From Hydnum rufescens UP504 (taxonomy: Eukaryota > Basidiomycota > Agaricomycetes > Cantharellales > Hydnaceae): DNA of 64,000 nucleotides. Positions 43,721 to 63,960 of this stretch are shown here, piece by piece (the stretch's first letter is position 1; every line of letters begins with the position of its first letter). The stretch spans positions 41,112-105,111 of the forward strand of contig MU129060.1 in NCBI GenBank assembly GCA_014904985.1, written 5' to 3'. Both the position numbers and the translations under genes were made by a program. The notes under the pieces were generated by a model. The model did not search any database, was not told where the DNA came from, and was given only the letters and a program-made list of their open reading frames with translations.

Positions 43721-44219
43721 CTATAGCTTTCTAAACCTAAACCAGTGGAAAGCTTCTCCTCATTGAGGAGTTTGGTGCTGCCCTGGGAGTTGCCCTTTCT
43801 TACATAGCCTTTCTTAGTCACATAGCCTGCATGGAAAGAGCCATGGCAATGCCCAGAAATGCATCCTTTCTACCATCACCATCTGTCTGTCTCATGGAGC
43901 CACAGACTTACAGATTATGCACTACACACTGTGCAACCCCCAGCCTAATGGCTAAACCTTCCTATTTTGCCCTTATGGGTATAGAGACACTAACCCTCCA
44001 GGAGCTACTGGCTTGCCAGGCAAGGTGGAAGGGTCTTAGTCCCTCCAACTGGCCTAATCCACTAGAGCCAGAGCCTCCTCCACCTCCTGGCTCCACCCCA
44101 TTCCTTAGTTCAGATACAACAGCACTAACAGTGTGGCTTGGCACTTCACTGTTGGGCATGGGGCACAGGTTGCATTTTGGGTGCTTCAATTTGAATCCTT
44201 GTTAGTAAAAAAAATTTGA

Positions 44220-46110
44220 AATGATGCAAAAGGAGTAGCTTGTGCTACTCCTTTATTGTTGTAGATATAGAAATTTAAAAAAAAAACCCCTTTGTAGTAC
44301 CACACACCCACCTAAGTGGGTATGTGGTACTGTTTTGTACCATGGTCATGCAGTTCATACCCAGTATGGGGCTGGTCATCACTTAGGGCATTGGTGGGTT
44401 TCCATTCTTGTGGGTTTCATTTGGCAGGTGGGTTGCCATTCTTGCAGATGTCTTCAGTGGGGTTCTGGGTCTTGATTTGGGGGTTGATGGGGTGTGTAGG
44501 CTGAGATGAAAGCCTAGGGATAAATAATGTTAGTGAAAGAGAGAAAAAAAAAACAGAAAGCCACACAAAGGAGCAGTGTACACTGCTCCTTTTACATGAT
44601 CATACTTACCTTGAAATTACCACACACCTGCTTCTGCAGGTGTGTGGTTTGTCCAGGGCTTGTGTCATGTCTTTGATTGCTGTTTGCAGGTTTCAGTTGG
44701 TGGTGGTTCTCCGGTGTTTGTTAGGTGGGGTCATGGAGGCATGAGTTCAGATGACAACCTAGAAGCAATATGTTAGTAAAAAAAGATTTGGCAGTTGAAC
44801 AGATCCTAACCTTTAAATTACCACACACCTGCTGAAGTGGGGGTGTGGTTTTGTCTGGGGTTGCTGTGGTCTCACCTTGTGGGTCCCAGGTTTCATCTGT
44901 GTGGGTTGTGTTCATGGCTTTTGTTTGGTGGGTGCAGGGGGCTTCATTCAACAGGTCTTCATTTTCCTCTTAGTGGTTCAGGTGATAATCTAGAATAATA
45001 ATTGTGTTAGTTAAAAAATTAAAACCAGTGCAAAAAGAGCAGCACCTGAGGTGCTGCTCTTCTTGCATGGTCATGGGTACCCAACATTACCTACCTCTCC
45101 CACACATCCGCCATAGCAGGTGTGTGGTTCATCAGGTTTGGTGTCATCTCATGTTTTTGTTTGGTGCATCATCATTTGACTTTGTGGGCAGGCTATTGTT
45201 TTGGGGGGGATTCATTTCACCAATCTTCATTTGTGGCAGCCTAGAATAATGGATGTATTAGTTAAACAGATTAAAACCAGCACAAAAAGAGCAGTGTTTG
45301 CTGCTCTTTTTGTGCTGTTGGGGGTGCACTTACCTTATATAGAACTACACACCCACCACAGTGGGTGTGTGGTTCACATGGCCACTCAGGTGGTGCATGG
45401 CCACCTCTTGTGTTTTTGTTTTGTGGTTTCAGTTTGCATGTTGCCACTAGGGCCCTGGCTGATTGGGCCTCATTGTTTGTGGTTTGGGGGGGTTTCATTT
45501 GATGGCCTAGAATGAATTAAAAAGTAATCAGTAAAGAAATTCAAAGTAGTGCAAAAAGAGCAGCTTTTGCTGCTCTTTTTGTGCCATTGGGGACACATAG
45601 CTTGAATGCAGAACCAGACACATGGCAGGTGTCTGGTTTGCATTGGTTTATTGGGATGTTCATCAGGTTTTCACTTGTTGTCTGTGGTTTCATTTGGTGC
45701 TCATGCAGATGGTGGTTCAAAGCATGACCTAGAATATCAAAATATATGTTAGTTAAGGTTAATAATTTAGTGCAAAAAGACCAGCAAAAGCTGGTCTTTT
45801 TGTGTGACTGTGTCTATTGGGGGGGGGGGGTTGACACTCACCTTAAGTACCACACCCACTGCAGCAGGTGTGGTTCCTGGGGCCACCCATTGGGTGGTCT
45901 GTCATTTCTTTTGGTTTGGCTCTTGCCATTCAGGCCCTCATCATGCACTGGGCTTTTGTCTTGGGCCTTAGACCATACTCTAAAATAATAGAAGCTATGT
46001 TAGTATAAGAATTCAAAGTGGTGCAAAAAGAGTACTCTTTTTGTGCTATTGTATCTACTGACAAAACTCACCTTATGACCACACACCCACAGCAGTGGGT
46101 GTGTGGTTGT
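44220..46110 (-). repeat. Tandem array of hairpin-bearing intron-like modules (minus)
   Basis: Minus-strand modules of about 210-270 bases. Each reads: exon-like part ending in an ACCACACACC..GGTGTGTGGT hairpin, then a donor, then an A-rich hairpin of the AAAAAGAGCAGC..GCTGCTCTTTTT type, then RCTAAC/ACTAAT and CTAG. Predicted introns (plus coordinates): 45980-46071, 45729-45841, 45507-45600, 45241-45333, 44990-45094, 44759-44810 and 44514-44609. Donors are GTGAGT, GTGAGT, lost or GC (GCTATG), GTAAGT, GTAGGT, GTTAGG and GTAAGT. The 44759-44810 intron has no hairpin. An eighth module at 44220-44330 keeps both hairpins and ACTAAC but has no clear donor or acceptor. Exon-like parts have stops in all frames, so a protein product is unlikely. 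Confidence 0.8.
45283..45318. repeat. Intronic hairpin, representative
   Basis: gcacaaaaagagcag / ctgctctttttgtgc, 15 paired bases with a six-base loop, centred in the predicted intron 45241-45333. Equivalents sit near 44228, 44565, 45033, 45549, 45772, 46021, 46803, 62151, 62418, 62690 and 62898. Confidence 0.85.
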
Positions 46111-46160
46111 GGGGTTGTGGGGTCATGGTTGTCTCCTTTCTGTGGCTGTGTAGTTGCAAA

Positions 46161-46678
46161 ATTCAATGCCAGCAATTGCTGATACTCAAGCAGTGCCCAA
46201 GTGCTGATGCTACAAGCACAGTACAGATTAATAGCAAGCATGTAAATGTGTAATAAATATTTGTTTAAAAATGTGAAGAAGAGGATGATAATGAGCCAGA
46301 GCTCAATAAGGGATGATATGCCTCATTGCAAAGTGGATTGGATCACTTCTATGCATCAGAATTCTTCAACTCCCTATTTAGGGAATTGAAGGCATGAAAA
46401 ATTGAAAAATGCCAGAATCATCCAATATAATTGGTCACCCATGTAGGGTGTATATATACCATCACTATATTTAAATTTGGGCCAATTCTGATGCATAGAA
46501 GTGATCCAATCCACTTTGCAATGAAGCATATCATCCCTTATTGAGCTCTGGCTCATTATCATCCTCTTCTTCACATTTTTAAACAAATATTTATTACACA
46601 TTTACATGCTTGCTATTAATGCATGTAGTGCCAGTGCTTGGGCACTTCTTGAGTATTGACACTTGCCAGCATTGAATC
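46161..46678. repeat. Large inverted repeat, centre near 46420
   Basis: 46161-46361 is the near-exact inverse of 46484-46678 (for example aagtggattggatcacttct, aaatatttgtttaaaaatgt), with a spacer of about 120 bases. The symmetry continues outward: the exonic hairpin at 46078 mirrors 46741 and the intronic hairpin at 46021 mirrors 46803. Total arm length about 340-380 bases. Confidence 0.85.
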
Positions 46679-46739
46679 TACATCTTGCTTCCCATCTCCA
46701 AAACCACAAACAACAACCACCTGAAAAGGCAAGCACACA

Positions 46740-47384
46740 ACCACACACCCACCACTGTGGGTGTGTGGTCACAAGGTGAGTGTTTTTTTAGTAGATACAA
46801 CAGTGCAAAAAGAGCAAAAGCTGCTCTTTTTGCACTGCTTTGGAATTTTTTTTACTGATGCACCTTTTTGTAGATTGGGGCTGGTCCAATGCACCACAAT
46901 AACCCACAAAATGACAAGAGCCCAAACAGTGGTGCAACACATGGCAATGCAATGCACAGCAATGCAGTGCACAGCAATATGACATGGCAAAGCAACACAT
47001 GGCAACATGCTGTTGGAGGGATAAAATCCCAATACATACCTCATCTGGGCCCAACTACCTCCTCAAATGAATCCATATTTCTACATTTCTCTCATATCCA
47101 CACTTGTTATTCCTTTGGCCATCAAATAGCATGGATTCCACATCCCAGGAACTGTGGTCCTGTTACTTTTCCTCCACCCTATATACAAGACAATTACTTG
47201 TCTGTCCTTGGCACTTCAACAGGCCATCCAAATTGTACTTATTTCCAAGCTGGTTTAGCCAGGCTATAGCAATTCAACTTGCTTACTTTCATCCACCTAT
47301 TGTATCACTATCAGCATATCCAATTGCCTCAAGGGCAGTATTTGACCTTGGATTATGTAACATGACTCCCACTTTGACTTGCAG
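46740..47384 (+). repeat. Plus-strand hairpin module and left part of block A
   Basis: Exonic hairpin 46741-46770, intron 46776-46873 (GTGAGT, hairpin 46803-46836, ACTGAT, TGTAG), exon-like part to about 47040 with gcaatgcacagcaatgca repeats, then 47044-47384, which matches the inverse of 40930-41280. It is interrupted at 47385 by copy 1 of the 1.6-kb element and the nested hAT, and resumes at 61052 (acttgtcacatg). Confidence 0.8.
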
Positions 47385-48413
47385 TATAGAAGAAGGATTG
47401 GGAGCTCCGATGACTGTCAAATCAAACTCTGGTTCAGCCAGTGTGTAGATGGGAGACTATATTTCTGTTTTTATTCAATGGGCTGGTTTGCTCTGATGGT
47501 TGATCACTCTCTAACAAGTTGTGTATGATATTCAGTGGAGGTTAAGGTTGTGGTATGGACTAGCTATAGTCAATGATATATCATGAGATGCTTGTGAAAG
47601 GCTTATATGTGTTGTATTGAACTGTTTACTGCTATTTGTGTGTACTTATTTGTGTCCTCCTGGTCAAAATGCGGATTCTAAGAGGGTTCTAGACTAGTTT
47701 AAGCTTGATTCAGTGTGTCAATGTGTTTCTTTCTTCTTCTGACTTGACTTTGTTATTACTCACCTTTCCTTGGATGTCCAGCAACTCTAACCTTAGGTCC
47801 TGCAACTATCCTTGGCTTAGTATTTTATGTAGAGGGCTTCCAGTGACTTAGTCTTAACAACCTTGTATATGACTTAGCTCCAGATGGCTTTAGATCAGTA
47901 CTTCTCTTCAGATGCAAGCAGATTTTGTAGACAGTAGTATATTCCAGTAGTGAGGAGATGGGGGGGATGCAGGAAAATCTACCAGCTTTTATACCCTTCT
48001 GAAGGTGGCTGTGTTTAAAGAATATGACTCACTCCTGGGTGAGTCATATGTGAGAACAATAGGGTTGTCAAGGAGGGTGAGTCATTCATAAGGTGGTTGC
48101 ATGATAGGTGAGTCATTCATAAAGTGGTTGCAAGGAAGGTGAGTCATTCATAAACAGAACAAAAGGGTTGCTAAGAAGGTGTTATCTTTCATAAAGGGGT
48201 TGCAAGGTAGGTGAGTCCTTCATAAACAGAACAAAAGGGTTGCTAAGGAGGTGTTATCTTTCTTATCTGTGAAGTTCTAGAAGTTATTTGTGGCAATGGG
48301 GGATGAAATCAAAGGATCTTTCTGAGTTCTTGGAGATTAATTTGTTTGTAGTCCAGTGGTTAAGATGTGTTTTGTTGCTGGTTGATAATGGAGACAAGTG
48401 CATGGGATGGGAT
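47385..48413 (+). mobile_element. 1.6-kb element, copy 1, left part
   Basis: Starts TATAGAAGAAGG and matches copy 2 (49047) and the inverse of copy 3 (53666) down to gcatgggatgggat, where the hAT is inserted. The rest of the copy is at 60479-61047. Flanks are GCAG (left) and GTGG (right), a diverged 4-bp duplication; the empty site at about 40930 reads GCAG once. Contains TGAGTCA repeats (48021-48240). Confidence 0.85.
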
Positions 48414-52071: not shown

Positions 52072-53666
52072 GTGGAAGATAAAAACATCCAGTATCAGAA
52101 AATGTGAATATCTATTGATCCCAGCCATTGGAATGATCATGTGACCTATTATGAAATTAATTATGGCTATGCATGAAAACAGAGTTTGTTCGATTACTCC
52201 ATCAGTTTTGATTGGAGAGGTACGCCCATATAACTCTTGGAAAGCCACAATTCACACCTTTCGAATGGTACCAAACACAAGTCTAACGGACCAAAAATGC
52301 ACTCTCCAGACCAATATTACTGTCAAAATCCAGGATTTTTAGTAAAAAAAACCGGATTTCTCCATCAGTTCGCATTCAATCCTCCCAGAACAACCGCGCC
52401 TGGAAAGATATAAAAAATCCGCATCCAACGGTACTAAGCACGCGAAGAACAGATCAAAACTGAACTCTACAGAATGATATTACTATCAGAATCAACACCC
52501 ATCAGTAAAAAACAAATTTCTCTGTCAGTTTACACTGGATCTGCTCGGAACCACTGCGCCCAGAAAGCTGTTAAAAATCCGCATCGAATGATACCAAGAA
52601 CGTCTATTACGGATGCAAACTGTTGTTTCTGCATCGAATCCCATCCCATGCACTTGTCCCCATTATCAACCAGCAACAAAAACATCTTAACCACTGGACT
52701 ACAAACAAATTAATCTCCAAGAACTCAGAAAGATCCTTTGATTTCATCTCCCATTGCCACAAATAACTTCTAGAACCTCACAGATAAGAAAGATAGCACC
52801 TCCTTGAGTACCCTTTTGTTCTGTTTATGAATGACTCACCTTCCTTGCAACCACTTTATGAAAGATAACACCTTCTTAGCAACCCTTTTGTTCTGTTTAT
52901 GAATGACTCACCTATCTTGCAACCACTTTATGAATGACTCACCTATCATGCAACCACCTTATGAATGACTCACCTCCTTAACAACCCTATTGTTCTCACA
53001 TATGACTCACCTAGGAGTGAGTCATATTCTTTAAACACAGCCACCTTCAGAAAGGTATAAAAGCTGGTAGATTTTCCTGTATCCCCCCATCATCTTCTCA
53101 CTACTGGAATATACTACTGTCTACAAATCTGCTTGCATCTGAAGAGAGTACTGATCTGAAAGCCATCTGGAGCTAAGTCATATACAAGGTTGTTAAGACT
53201 AAGTCACTGGAAGCCCTCTACATAAAATACTAAGCCAAGGATAGTTGCAGGACCTAAGGTTAGAGTTGCTGGACATCCAAGGAAAGGTGAGTAATAATAA
53301 AAGTCAAGTCAGAAGAAGAAAGAAATACATTGACACACTGAATCAAGCTTAAACTAGTCCAGAACCCTCTTTAGAATCCGCATTTTGACCAGGAGGACAC
53401 AAATAGGTACACACAAATAGCAATAAACAGCTCAATACAACACATATAAGCCTTTCATAAGCATCCCACGATATATCATTGACTATAGCTAGTCCATACC
53501 ATTGCCTTACCATCACTGAATACCATACACAACTTGTTAGAGAGTGATCAACCATCAGAGCGAACCAGCCCATTGAATAAAAACAGAAATACAGCCTCCC
53601 ATCTACACACTGGCTGAACCAGAGTTTGATTTGACAGTCATCGGAGCTCCCAATCCTTCTTCTATA
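52072..53666 (-). mobile_element. 1.6-kb element, copy 3, in FAS2 carrier domain
   Basis: 1595 bases in inverted orientation (TGTGGAAGATAA..CTTCTTCTATA), flanked by GCGG at 52068-52071 and 53667-53670. Excision joins EFVS to ALEKGEE in the carrier-domain frame. ~162-base tandem units start at about 52197, 52360 and 52520. Contains gaatgactcacct tandem repeats (52835-52990) and the near-palindrome tgactcacctaggagtgagtca. Confidence 0.9.
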
Positions 53667-59600: not shown

Positions 59601-60231
59601 AGGAATGGGAAGATACATGGGTGGAGCAAGCCCTTGATAAATTTCGAATCGAGGTGGGTTCTTTTCATATCCATCACATGTGCCCATAGAATAACCCCCC
59701 TTGTTGTCAGTTTGACAAGTACAAGTTGCAGTATGATATGAAGTGAGCTCACCTGACCGCTGCAATTCCTACAGCTGAAGTTCCCAACACATATGCTTCA
59801 GGCTATGGAAATGCCCAGCGAATCCATGCAGTAATGGCGCGAAGGTTGAAAGAAGCCTCAGAATCTATGGCTTGCAAAGAATTGGATGGCTATATTGCAG
59901 ATCCCCTTGCACCTGAAGCAAGTTTTAACATGTTGAAATGGTGGAGCATAAGTTCCACTCAATCCTTGGTCTTCTGTTAGGACCTCATTAATACTTGGCA
60001 TGTGATTAGGATCATGCAGGCCAATATCCAGTTCTTGCATCCATGGCACGAGACTACTTGGCCATTCAAGCCTCGTCTGTTCCTTGTGAACAGATGTTCT
60101 CTTCTAGCAAAGACACTGACTCCTATTTATGCACATGGCTGACTTCGGAACATTTTGGTCAAATACAGTTGGCAAAAGCCCACCTCCGAAAGATCCGTAA
60201 ACAAAAAATGGAGGCAAAGGAAGGTTATTAA
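56607..60231 (+). pseudogene. hAT transposase with BED-like zinc finger
   Basis: Multi-exon, plus strand. N-terminal part from the ATG at 56607 (MSDNKGPHMDPDQPAVDHYG), a second part with KKQRINDSNSDADNG (57245-57310); a BED-like finger (LKCYFAVK, VSTLRNHIAAHGGQHW) at 57575-57665; catalytic core VSLTFDGWTLSTMKAYIAVT (first Asp, 58205) and HITSDNASANNTAMREL (second Asp, 58470); LDPRMKDLYIREEWEDTW (59567); and the dimerisation region ARDYLAIQASSVPCEQMFSS (60043) through FGQIQLAKAHLRKIRK. Several introns are plausible (e.g. donors at 58394 and 58838). Stops such as MND-stop-AIPS near 57706 and one before THNS-like sequence suggest decay, though intron placement could remove some. Confidence 0.8.
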
Positions 60232-61051: not shown

Positions 61052-61990
61052 ACTTGTCACATGTTAAATAGGGGCTATTCCAATACTTGCAAGGAGTATT
61101 TTGCAATTATCTCCACCAGTTTTGATTGGATTGACTTGACAAAACAGCGCCCAGAAAGCTACGATTAATACCTATCTAATGGTACCACACACATGTTTAT
61201 TGGATATTAACTGCATCCCCCAGGTCAATTTTACCTCATGCTCCACACTATCCTTCAGTATTTTGCAAATATCTCCATCAGTTTTGATTTGATTCATTAG
61301 GAACAACCACCCCTGGAAAGATGCTGAAAATACGCATCAAATGGTATCCACAGAAAAATGAGTGGATTAGAACTCAGCTTTCTGTAATTTAGTCTCCCCA
61401 TGGCTCATTTCACTTTTACCTCTGCTTTTCTGATTACTAAAGGCAATTATGGTTCTGGTACCCTATGCCTGATGGAGGGTACATCTAGGGCGACCAGTTC
61501 CACCTTTCCTCAAGGGATTTTGTTCAGTGGGAGAGGAGGAATACCTTGGTTAAGCCATATTCCCCTATTCTGACTTGTTAATTGAATATCTCCTTCAGTT
61601 TTGAAGCTTTTGACTTGATTCTTTTTCATCATTTTCACCTTAGTTCCACCTTTCCGCCGGTTACCATAGCATTTTTCTGTGATGTATATTAAGTGCAAGA
61701 GATGTGAATTTCTATTGTCTTTTCCCCCATCTCCAGTTGAAAAGCTAGTTGAACTGCTGCTGGTGTCAGGGTAAATTCCACAACTCAACCCCCACTAATC
61801 ACACTTTTGATAGGCTCTCAAGAGGAGGACCTAGAGTGTGATTCCCTGATCTAACAGCCCCTTCATTTATTGTCTGGATAGGCTCAGTCTATACAAGACA
61901 ATTCTACCTGTCCAAAGACCCCTCTTTCCCTCAGACCTTAATGTTTGGATTGGCCCTGTGATCCCCTCTCTTCATCCTCATTTCCATTTC
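61052..61990 (+). repeat. Block A, right part, plus copy
   Basis: Continues 47384 after the nested insertions. Matches 63050-63960 and the inverse of 39940-40930. Begins with further ~160-base units (ctccaccagttttgatt 61110; ctccatcagttttgattt 61270). Confidence 0.85.
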
Positions 61991-62039
61991 ACAGACTGTA
62001 GCTGGATTCAACTCCTGTTTCCTGCTTACAGCACCAACA

Positions 62040-62991
62040 ATGTGACATACAGCACCACACCAAATGAGGCCCCAGAATCACACACCTGCCACAGTGGGTG
62101 TGTGGTTCTATGTAAGGTAAGTCCTGCCCCCCTCAGTAGCAACAGCCATGCAAAAAGAGCAGCAAAAGCTGCTCTTTTTGCATGGTTTTTAATTCTTAAC
62201 TAATTTAAAAGTTTTATTTTGTAGGTCTCAATGTCCCCTGCAAATGTACCAAGGCAAAACCCCCATAACCCCCCTTATAGCCACCCAAATGACAGGTGTC
62301 TGTACAAACTGCTGTACATACAAGCCAGAGTACACAGCCCCAGTACCCCACACTGCTGCAGCAGGTGTGGGGTGCTGCAAGGTATGTCCTCTTTATTTTT
62401 ATTTAGTAAATACAATGGCACAAAAAGAGCAGCAAAAGCTGCTCTTTTTGTGCTGTTTTGAATTTTGTCACTAATGTGTCATTATTATTCTAGATTGAGG
62501 CCTTCTCCAAGGCACACAACATGACATATGGCAATGTGCCAAATGAAGATGCACCACACTGCAATGCAACATACAGCAACACCAAACAAAGATCTGACCA
62601 CACCAAATGAGGGCCCCAGGAACCACACACCTGCCATGGCAGGTGTGTGGTACTATATAAGGTGAGTTCCTGCCCAGTAGCTACACCTGCACAAAAAGAA
62701 CAGCAAAAGCTGCTCTTTTTGTGCTGGTTCGAATATTGGTACTAATATATCTTTTATTACTCTAGATTGTGGCCATGACAAAAACCCACAAAATGAACAA
62801 GGGCCCAAATGGCAATGCACCAAATGAGAACCAAAGTGCCAAACAAGTGGCCTTATATATGGTGAGTCCCCCCCAGTATGTATTTTCCTTAGCTACATTG
62901 TGCAAGAAGAGCAGCCTCTGGCTGCTCTTCTTGGGTGCATGGGTGAGCTGTATATAATAATAATAAATAAATGAATAATCCTAATGGGTAG
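62040..62991 (+). repeat. Tandem array of hairpin-bearing intron-like modules (plus)
   Basis: Four predicted introns: 62117-62224 (GTAAGT..TGTAG), 62382-62493 (GTATGT..TCTAG), 62662-62765 (GTGAGT..TCTAG), 62862-62991 (GTGAGT..GGTAG). Each has a central hairpin (62151, 62418, 62690, 62898) followed by CTAAT or ACTAA 25-40 bases before the AG. Exon-like parts of 96-168 bases end in the CACACACC hairpin just before the donor, except the third, which ends in ttatatatg. Exons contain recurrent ccaaatga, aacatgaca and gcaatg words but no sustained open frame. Confidence 0.8.
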
Positions 62992-63015
62992 GGGCCCCAG
63001 GGGCCCTGGGGCCCC
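62991..63015. repeat. GC-only near-palindrome
   Basis: Twenty-five bases, ggggccccag gggccctggg gcccc, near-symmetrical, directly after an AT-rich run (taataataataaataaa) and at the last predicted acceptor. Confidence 0.75.
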
Positions 63016-63049
63016 TGGGTCTGATATCTAGTTAGAGTATATAAATGCA

Positions 63050-63960
63050 ACCTTTGAAGTATCTAGTTAGATACCAATAATTGGCTGACCAGGCTGTATC
63101 TACCTCAGTTTTGATTGGATCAACTTGGAAAGACATCTCCTAGAAAGCTATGATCCACACCATTCAGACAATACCAAACATGAGCTGAATGAATTAAAAC
63201 TGTGCTCTCCAAGTCACTTTTACTATGTGTCTCATACTTCCAAGCAGTATTTTTTGATTTTCTCTGTCAGTTTTGGGCCAATTAGTTTGCAACAAGCATG
63301 CCCAGAAGGCTGTTTACAGTCCACATCCAATTGTATTAAGGGAAAAACAATTGGATTAAAACTCAGCTCTCCACAATTTAACTCCCCCATGTCAGATTTC
63401 ATTATTGCCTCTGCATTTTTTGATTACTAATGGCAATTATTCTCTGCCCCTCTTATGTCTGATGAAGGGTACATCTAGGGAGACCAGTTCCACCATTCCC
63501 CAAGGGATTCTGCTCAGTAGGAGAGGAGGAATAGCTTGGTTAAGCCATATTCCCCTATTCTGACTTGATATTTGAATATCCCCTTCAGTTTTAAAGCTTT
63601 TGACTTGATTTCTTTTTCATCATTTTGCATTCACCCCACCTTTCTGCCAGTTACCATAGCATTTTTCTGTGATGTATATTAAGTGCAAGAGATGTGAATT
63701 TCCAAAGTCTTCCCCCTCCCCAGTTTTGAGGCACTGAAATTGCTTGAGCAGGTGTTGCTTACAGCATTAGATTTCTATCCAAAAAGACCTTCCTTCCTTT
63801 GAGCCTTAACATTTGGATTGATCCTGTGGTCCCTTCTTTTGTTCTCAATTCCATATTGTGGACTGTGGCTGGATTCCTCCCTTTGTTTCCCACTTACACT
63901 GTACCCACAGGCATAGTGATTGTAGCAAGGCTGCATTCCTACATCTGTATCCTGTTAAAG
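63050..63960 (+). repeat. Block A, second plus copy
   Basis: Direct repeat of 61052-61990 starting around ctacctcagttttgattgga and ending around gctggattcctccctttg, also matching the inverse of 39950-40900. The hairpin array lies between the two direct copies. Confidence 0.8.

Follow-up and report, generated by a model that had tools for sequence, protein, structure and literature searches.

Non-autonomous DNA transposons, be they MITE-like or deletion derivatives, possess terminal inverted repeats (TIRs) and target site duplications (TSDs) and attain high copy numbers without encoding a transposase; their interior is short or decayed. The hairpin element described here, of which hundreds of whole or partial copies reside in the genome of the basidiomycete Hydnum rufescens UP504, likewise has TIRs and TSDs, occurs in high copy number and is devoid of a transposase, but it is large (~5 kb) and carries a conserved, structured cargo. 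A further analogy is offered by intron-encoded small RNA host genes (snoRNA hosts, mirtrons): like them, the hairpin element would set free a structured RNA with every intron removed from its non-coding transcript; in contrast to these, it gave no Rfam match at the gathering threshold, and the 25 and 21 sub-threshold matches returned by two scans were judged to be chance. Fungal introner-like elements, or introners, resemble it in that many structured spliceosomal introns are tied to a transposon, but, in the accounts given in PMC9860276 and PMC8469720, introners make new introns in genes, whereas the hairpin element multiplies exon and intron jointly and is non-coding. The sister stwintrons of Hypoxylaceae, as portrayed in PMC8469720, are also symmetrical introns that spread; their symmetry, however, comprises the whole intron and they lie in the exonic sequence of genes, whereas each Hydnum unit features a short hairpin inside a longer intron. 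Fungal KDZ (Kyakuja-Dileera-Zisupton) transposons are close as well: elements of this genome that encode a KDZ transposase have the same terminal word and subterminal GGGGCCCC words as the hairpin element, and its 8-bp TSD is of a length reported for some KDZ lineages. They differ in that no transposase was found in the hairpin element, whose arms are instead intron-rich and non-coding and meet in a central palindrome. As reported in Kojima 2025 (PMC12730594), 8-bp TSDs are made by Zisupton and by Zisupton-1_PGr of the Dileera lineage, and the Kyakuja families described there have 7-bp duplications and no TIRs. A description of the hairpin element was not found in the literature searched, which does not imply that none exists.

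We consider it probable that the hairpin element is a ~5-kb non-autonomous transposon that a KDZ transposase mobilises in trans and that is composed of two divergent, spliced, non-coding units built from hairpin-bearing modules. The analysis covers one genome, from which those loci were picked that matched either the array or the hairpin; they comprise 41 regions with 253,784 bases, 68,889 of which belong to the window (the whole 64,000-nt stretch of DNA that was analysed) and its extension. Copies in which both ends were seen begin with a TIR and subterminal GGGGCCCC words, continue with the A/T-rich 3′ terminus of one unit, its modules and the central palindrome, and then, in the opposite direction, have a second row of modules with its own A/T-rich end, subterminal words and TIR. 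The two rows diverge outward from the central palindrome, and each of their modules is a non-coding exon/intron unit with two hairpins, one in the exon near the donor and one in the intron; among the arms examined, the number of intron hairpins ranges from 3 (the truncated arm in the window) to 9. Across the 63.2-Mb genome, GAGCAGC-N4-GCTGCTC, the core of the intron hairpin, has 4,921 occurrences, as against a single one of a reversed-pattern control. The TIR word has 826 matches genome-wide (control: 0), a total that includes the ends of KDZ elements, and the word at the central palindrome, when three mismatches are allowed, has 180 and 188 matches on the two strands, mostly at shared places, corresponding to ~190 centres. 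One copy has at its centre a perfect palindrome whose arms measure 323 bp and whose loop is 4 nt long (L043:3544-4193), and in another, exon 1 of one arm holds a long CTG/CAG-type trinucleotide run next to the central palindrome (L077:481-600). Matching TIRs and 8-bp TSDs are present in both copies for which the two ends were obtained, the duplicated word being CTCTTTAC in one (C144) and GGTTACCA in the other (C1); in a third copy (C480), the far end was looked for and not found. There is also a second end type: when five other copies were aligned to C136, all five alignments stopped at the same base (within 1). Two of these copies, with identities of 97.9% and 98.7% to C136, have alignments that stop at the element end, which suggests recent movement of these near-identical copies (G000 C136, C52, C292).

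No transposase was found in the hairpin element. Two other elements (L079 and L080), however, start with its TIR word, share its subterminal GGGGCCCC words and encode a KDZ transposase, as indicated by PF18758 matches in a 721-residue frame of L080 (E 9.4e-56) and in two frames of L079 (E 1.1e-18 and 4.2e-15). Their ends align to those of the hairpin element with 68–79% identity over 73–160 bp, in a comparison of two elements that covers only one end (the TIR) of each, and no hairpin cores occur within the parts of L079 and L080 that were analysed. Because its ends are shared with KDZ-encoding elements and its TSDs measure 8 bp, the hairpin element is best classified as the non-autonomous companion of a KDZ element, by which it would be transposed in trans. 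A hAT identity, first read from the 8-bp duplication and the CA termini, was dropped once a KDZ transposase had been linked to the same ends; the 8-bp duplication alone is equally compatible with hAT, and the positive evidence is the KDZ link.

Two copies of the element lie in the window, with the following features:

62031–63096, plus strand: truncated, CpG-depleted element arm that runs from an interior breakpoint up to the TIR, recognised by homology to other copies
62074–62109, plus strand: exon hairpin 1, stem of 16 including three G-U pairs, loop CACA
62117–62224, plus strand: predicted intron 1, 108 nt, GTAAGT ... TTAACTAAT ... TTTTGTAG, branch word TTAAC
62146–62185, plus strand: intron hairpin 1, stem of 18, loop AAAA
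62342–62376, plus strand: exon hairpin 2, a CCCCACAC variant with a single bulged base
62382–62493, plus strand: predicted intron 2, 112 nt, GTATGT ... CACTAAT ... ATTCTAG, branch word CTAAT
62418–62453, plus strand: intron hairpin 2, stem of 16, loop AAAA
62622–62651, plus strand: exon hairpin 3, stem of 13
62662–62765, plus strand: predicted intron 3, 104 nt, GTGAGT ... TACTAAT ... CTCTAG, read directly
62689–62724, plus strand: intron hairpin 3, one mismatched pair
62862–62991, plus strand: terminal module, a donor-like word, a hairpin at 62903–62933, then an A/T-rich stretch
62990–63016, no strand assigned: subterminal GGGGCCCC palindrome, a word also present near the end of the KDZ-encoding elements
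63017–63096, no strand assigned: terminal inverted repeat region, ending in ...TTGGCTGACCAGGCTG, the element end
~44150–47000, no strand assigned: second, bidirectional, CpG-depleted copy of the element, centre ~46370, limits approximate

Homology of the array to one other copy (L039) begins at L044:142, which is window position 62031, and homology to another (L040) at L044:143. The sequence-only reading of this DNA had recognised four consecutive intron-like modules here, each with a perfect hairpin of 26–36 bases. Three of them stand, with donors GTAAGT, GTATGT and GTGAGT, an internal hairpin, a branch word and a TAG; intron 3 was missed by the automatic intron finder because of the mismatch in its hairpin and was identified by direct reading. 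The fourth is doubtful as an intron: its sole branch-like word, CTAAT at 62981–62985, lies just 3 nt ahead of the TAG. Since its hairpin and A/T-rich stretch also close the arms of other copies (L039 and L012), the terminal module (donor 62862) looks like a 3′ end, and it is probably the end of the transcript rather than an intron. The hairpins do reside inside the introns but measure 31–40 nt, the third being imperfect, and a second class, the exon hairpins just 5′ of the three donors, had gone unmentioned. The joint amplification of exon and intron within a transposable element is borne out. The term satellite is not supported, as Tandem Repeats Finder reported no array at 62040–62991 and the modules of an arm are diverged and enclosed in a dispersed element with TIRs and defined ends. 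Nor is "self-hiding" supported, given that only the introns could be removed and the exons would remain.

The ratio of observed to expected CpG is 0.02 in the array and likewise 0.02 in the second window copy, which is older, carries several modules on the minus strand and has its central palindrome near 46370; the value is 0.57 for the whole window and, elsewhere in the family, 1.15 (L043), 1.02 (L042) and 0.83 (L039). Judged by this depletion, the array is an old and probably dead copy. It is flanked by a direct duplication of ~0.9 kb (61107–62030 and 63097–63900, 61–91% identity in pieces), part of which is also found inverted in the L041 region. Elsewhere in the window, a hAT C-terminal dimerisation fragment at 60010–60228 (PF05699, E 1.3e-8) ends what looks like a broken transposase remnant starting at ~58.5 kb. 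An inverted pair of short tandem arrays, at 48022–48262 and 52788–53027, consists of GGTTGCAAGGAAGGTGAGTCATTCATAAA-type units with a terminal hairpin each, and a 57-bp tandem repeat of about five copies, with a palindrome-like GAGCATGTTCATGGAACATGC word in each, is located at 1347–1652 within an open reading frame of 253 residues.

Throughout the family, a donor, a branch site and an acceptor follow one another in the order and spacing of a spliceosomal intron on one strand. Homology alone gave an orientation for 184 of the 226 AGCAG-type hairpins in the first loci; flanks were complete for 180 (181 when read in reverse), some hairpins being counted twice because their loci overlap. Donor, branch word and AG were jointly present in 137 of these 180 on the intron strand, compared with 1 of 181 on the other strand and 90 of 1,800 shuffles. 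In the merged regions, with modules oriented by T-richness, the corresponding counts were 194 and 2 of 261, and among 60 representatives of divergent clusters (one per cluster, at 75% identity over 200 nt) all splice words were found in 42 on the intron strand versus one on the other and 41 of 1,200 flank shuffles. Genome-wide, AGGTRAGT is located 8–38 nt upstream of the hairpin core in 1,717 cases (opposite-strand control: 0), ACTAAY 8–38 nt downstream of it in 3,886 (opposite-strand control: 40), and the full branch-plus-TAG pattern follows the core in 3,253. These counts lie far above chance and confirm the modules as real. The sequence-only reading had named, as something that would refute it, a lack of correlation between splice sites and hairpins in other genomic copies; in those copies the splice words do track the hairpins, an outcome in its favour. 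Parsing succeeded for 209 of the 261 modules; among these, the median intron length is 105 nt and the median distance from branch A to AG is 21 nt, with the consensus donor AAG/GTRAGT and branch YTRAY (the parser required part of these words). An exon hairpin adjoins 172 of these 209 introns, its GGTGTG word lying a median of 12 nt, and 10–14 nt in the middle 80%, from the donor. Predicted junctions have the boundaries AAG/GTRAGT ... TATTCTAG/; G000:C136 and C142 are among the CpG-intact copies. A simple model of length compensation by the hairpin found no support, the correlation between hairpin length and intron length being −0.15. The best reading of these data is that of two intron-rich non-coding transcripts that would be spliced and in which both hairpins would be under selection.

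Conservation was measured on copies found with the hairpin masked, in the nine of the first 14 clusters for which an intron had been parsed and eight or more additional copies were available. At non-CpG sites, identity to the reference reaches 96% in the hairpin (6949/7223), compared with 69% in the rest of the intron (11488/16745) and 68% in exons (17919/26481). The donor GT is conserved in 679 of 718 cases (95%) and positions +3 to +6 at 77% (1105/1436); the AG is retained in 584 of 718 (81%), with values of only 17% and 56% in two of the nine clusters. The branch core, at 68% (728/1077), is not above background, its position moving between copies. With both hairpins masked (five of the 14 clusters), the exon stems likewise show 96% identity (2632/2752) versus 73% for the rest of the exon (3270/4461). 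Paired changes are evident in both stems: position 8 of the intron stem is A-T in 149, G-C in 47 and otherwise in 3 of 199, position 10 of the exon stem A-T in 84, C-G in 13 and otherwise in 4 of 101, and position 14 of the exon stem A-T in 32, G-C in 15, T-A in 14 and unpaired in 33 of 101. Pairing exceeds every shuffle at intron positions 8, 10, 11, 12, 14, 16 and 17 and at exon positions 9–15; it is not beyond shuffles at intron positions 9, 13, 15 and 18–20 and exon positions 16–20. On the predicted RNA strand of the cluster representatives, G-U pairs outnumber A-C mismatches by 73 to 20. Loops of the GNRA and YNMG types, both stable RNA tetraloop classes, are also strand-biased, with GNRA in 67 of 199 intron loops versus 8 of 199 read on the other strand and YNMG in 21 of 44 exon loops of CpG-intact hairpins versus 3 of 44; in CpG-decayed exon hairpins, the loop classes are uninformative (113 versus 94 of 171). 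The paired changes, the G-U bias and the loop classes favour an RNA role of the hairpins, but as counts they are not independent events, since the module types share ancestry. At CpG-bearing stem positions of old copies, the two arms decay almost independently, so that these copies yield no evidence of continuing selection.

A DNA-level explanation for the same dyads would have GAGCAGC-N4-GCTGCTC and CACACCCGC-N4-GCGGGTGTG serve as arrays of binding sites for dimeric proteins or be cruciforms that template-switch correction keeps perfect, with RNA folding incidental. We regard this as unlikely, although several observations are in its favour: the stem sequence itself, beyond its pairing, hardly varies from one module type to the next at several positions, and the predicted RNA strand is not consistently favoured by folding energy, neither in distinct intron hairpins (48 versus 42 of 129) nor in exon hairpins (38 versus 41 of 100), with cluster representatives leaning in the opposite direction (15 versus 25 of 60). 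Moreover, palindrome correction is probable in this family, the arms of the central palindrome having a median identity of 97.9% within a copy as against 81.5% between copies (17 centres, including two outliers at 57% and 70%; seven too close to a locus end were omitted). As arms are homogenised within copies, perfect stems could partly come from DNA-level correction. Against such a role stand the strand specificity of the donor and branch words around the hairpin, the spacing of 10–14 nt between the GGTGTG word of the exon hairpin and the donor in the middle 80% of 172 modules, the excess of G-U over A-C and the strand-biased loops.

That the modules are passive hitch-hikers, derived from a captured intron-rich fragment of a host gene and amplified by unequal exchange, with splice sites and hairpins as functionless relics, is improbable and already disfavoured. 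The plain interrelatedness of the modules and the public gene models drawn over some copies agree with such an origin; against it stand the conservation of hairpins at 96% and GT at 95% in hairpin-masked copies in which exons and the rest of the intron are at 68–69%, and the retention of all splice words in 42 of 60 divergent representatives. Very little weight is given to protein-coding arrays in which the spliced exons encode repetitive proteins. The T-poor exons (5–24% T in internal ones) are often open, the longest run without a stop amounting to 321 of the 544 codons of one predicted spliced arm and, in a set of 34 chains, to 225 residues, but such runs are the expectation for T-poor sequence. 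Two public hypothetical proteins, P0016 and P0017, derive from gene models over other copies of the element; when P0016 is aligned to a related copy, the hairpin introns are skipped, which shows only that the gene caller treated them as introns. Coding exons were rejected on the grounds of variable phase (many exons are of a length not divisible by three, and the phase of homologous exons differs from copy to copy), frame shifts of exon 1 in several copies and stops in all three frames of several exons, in keeping with the original description of the exon-like parts as non-coding. Equally remote is the notion that the hairpin introns are mobile introns seeding host genes, with the arrays as their reservoir. 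The thousands of intron-like units would suit such a factory, and fungal introner-like elements are also described as structured (in the account of PMC8469720); the TIRs and TSDs that define the mobile unit, however, lie outside the arrays, and most parsed introns have an exon hairpin beside them. No lone hairpin intron was noticed in a coding gene within the 41 regions, which had been chosen by array or hairpin match.

In the preferred reading of a KDZ-mobilised element with two spliced non-coding units, a KDZ-type transposase would recognise the common ends and move the element in trans. Transcription would start inside the central palindrome, a putative promoter, and proceed both ways toward the A/T-rich 3′ ends, each unit forming a row of ~4–9 exons and introns that carries no protein. 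The exon hairpin before the donor, together with the intron hairpin, would leave the 5′ splice site in a short single-stranded stretch flanked on both sides by a stable stem, and the ordinary spliceosome would remove the introns. What selection would keep is the ability to be spliced and the two hairpins, the exon sequence hardly mattering. Since exons drift while hairpins and donor sites are kept, the benefit is expected to come from splicing or from the hairpins. Efficient splicing might spare the transcript from silencing triggered by stalled spliceosomes; in Cryptococcus, transcripts stalled in the spliceosome are turned into siRNA through SCANR (PMC7763443). Alternatively, or alongside, the intron hairpin might be released by the spliceosome as a multi-copy RNA product. 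The most likely benefit, tentatively suggested, would be silencing avoidance, a released hairpin RNA, or both. It is possible, if rather doubtful, that the element represents a class of transposon whose sole cargo is structured, intron-rich non-coding RNA (two transcripts, released intron hairpins and chains of exon hairpins), selected for the spread of the element, which might gain by avoiding or saturating spliceosome-coupled silencing.

If the predicted introns are spliced, well over a thousand, and perhaps several thousand, non-coding spliceosomal introns would belong to a single transposon family. They would be introns under selection in spite of message-free exons, so that splicing itself or the hairpins would constitute the benefit to the element. 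The family would then allow a direct test of whether transposons evade or exploit spliceosome-coupled silencing of the kind known as SCANR in Cryptococcus among basidiomycetes, and its many intron variants would amount to a natural series for the action of hairpins beside a 5′ splice site.
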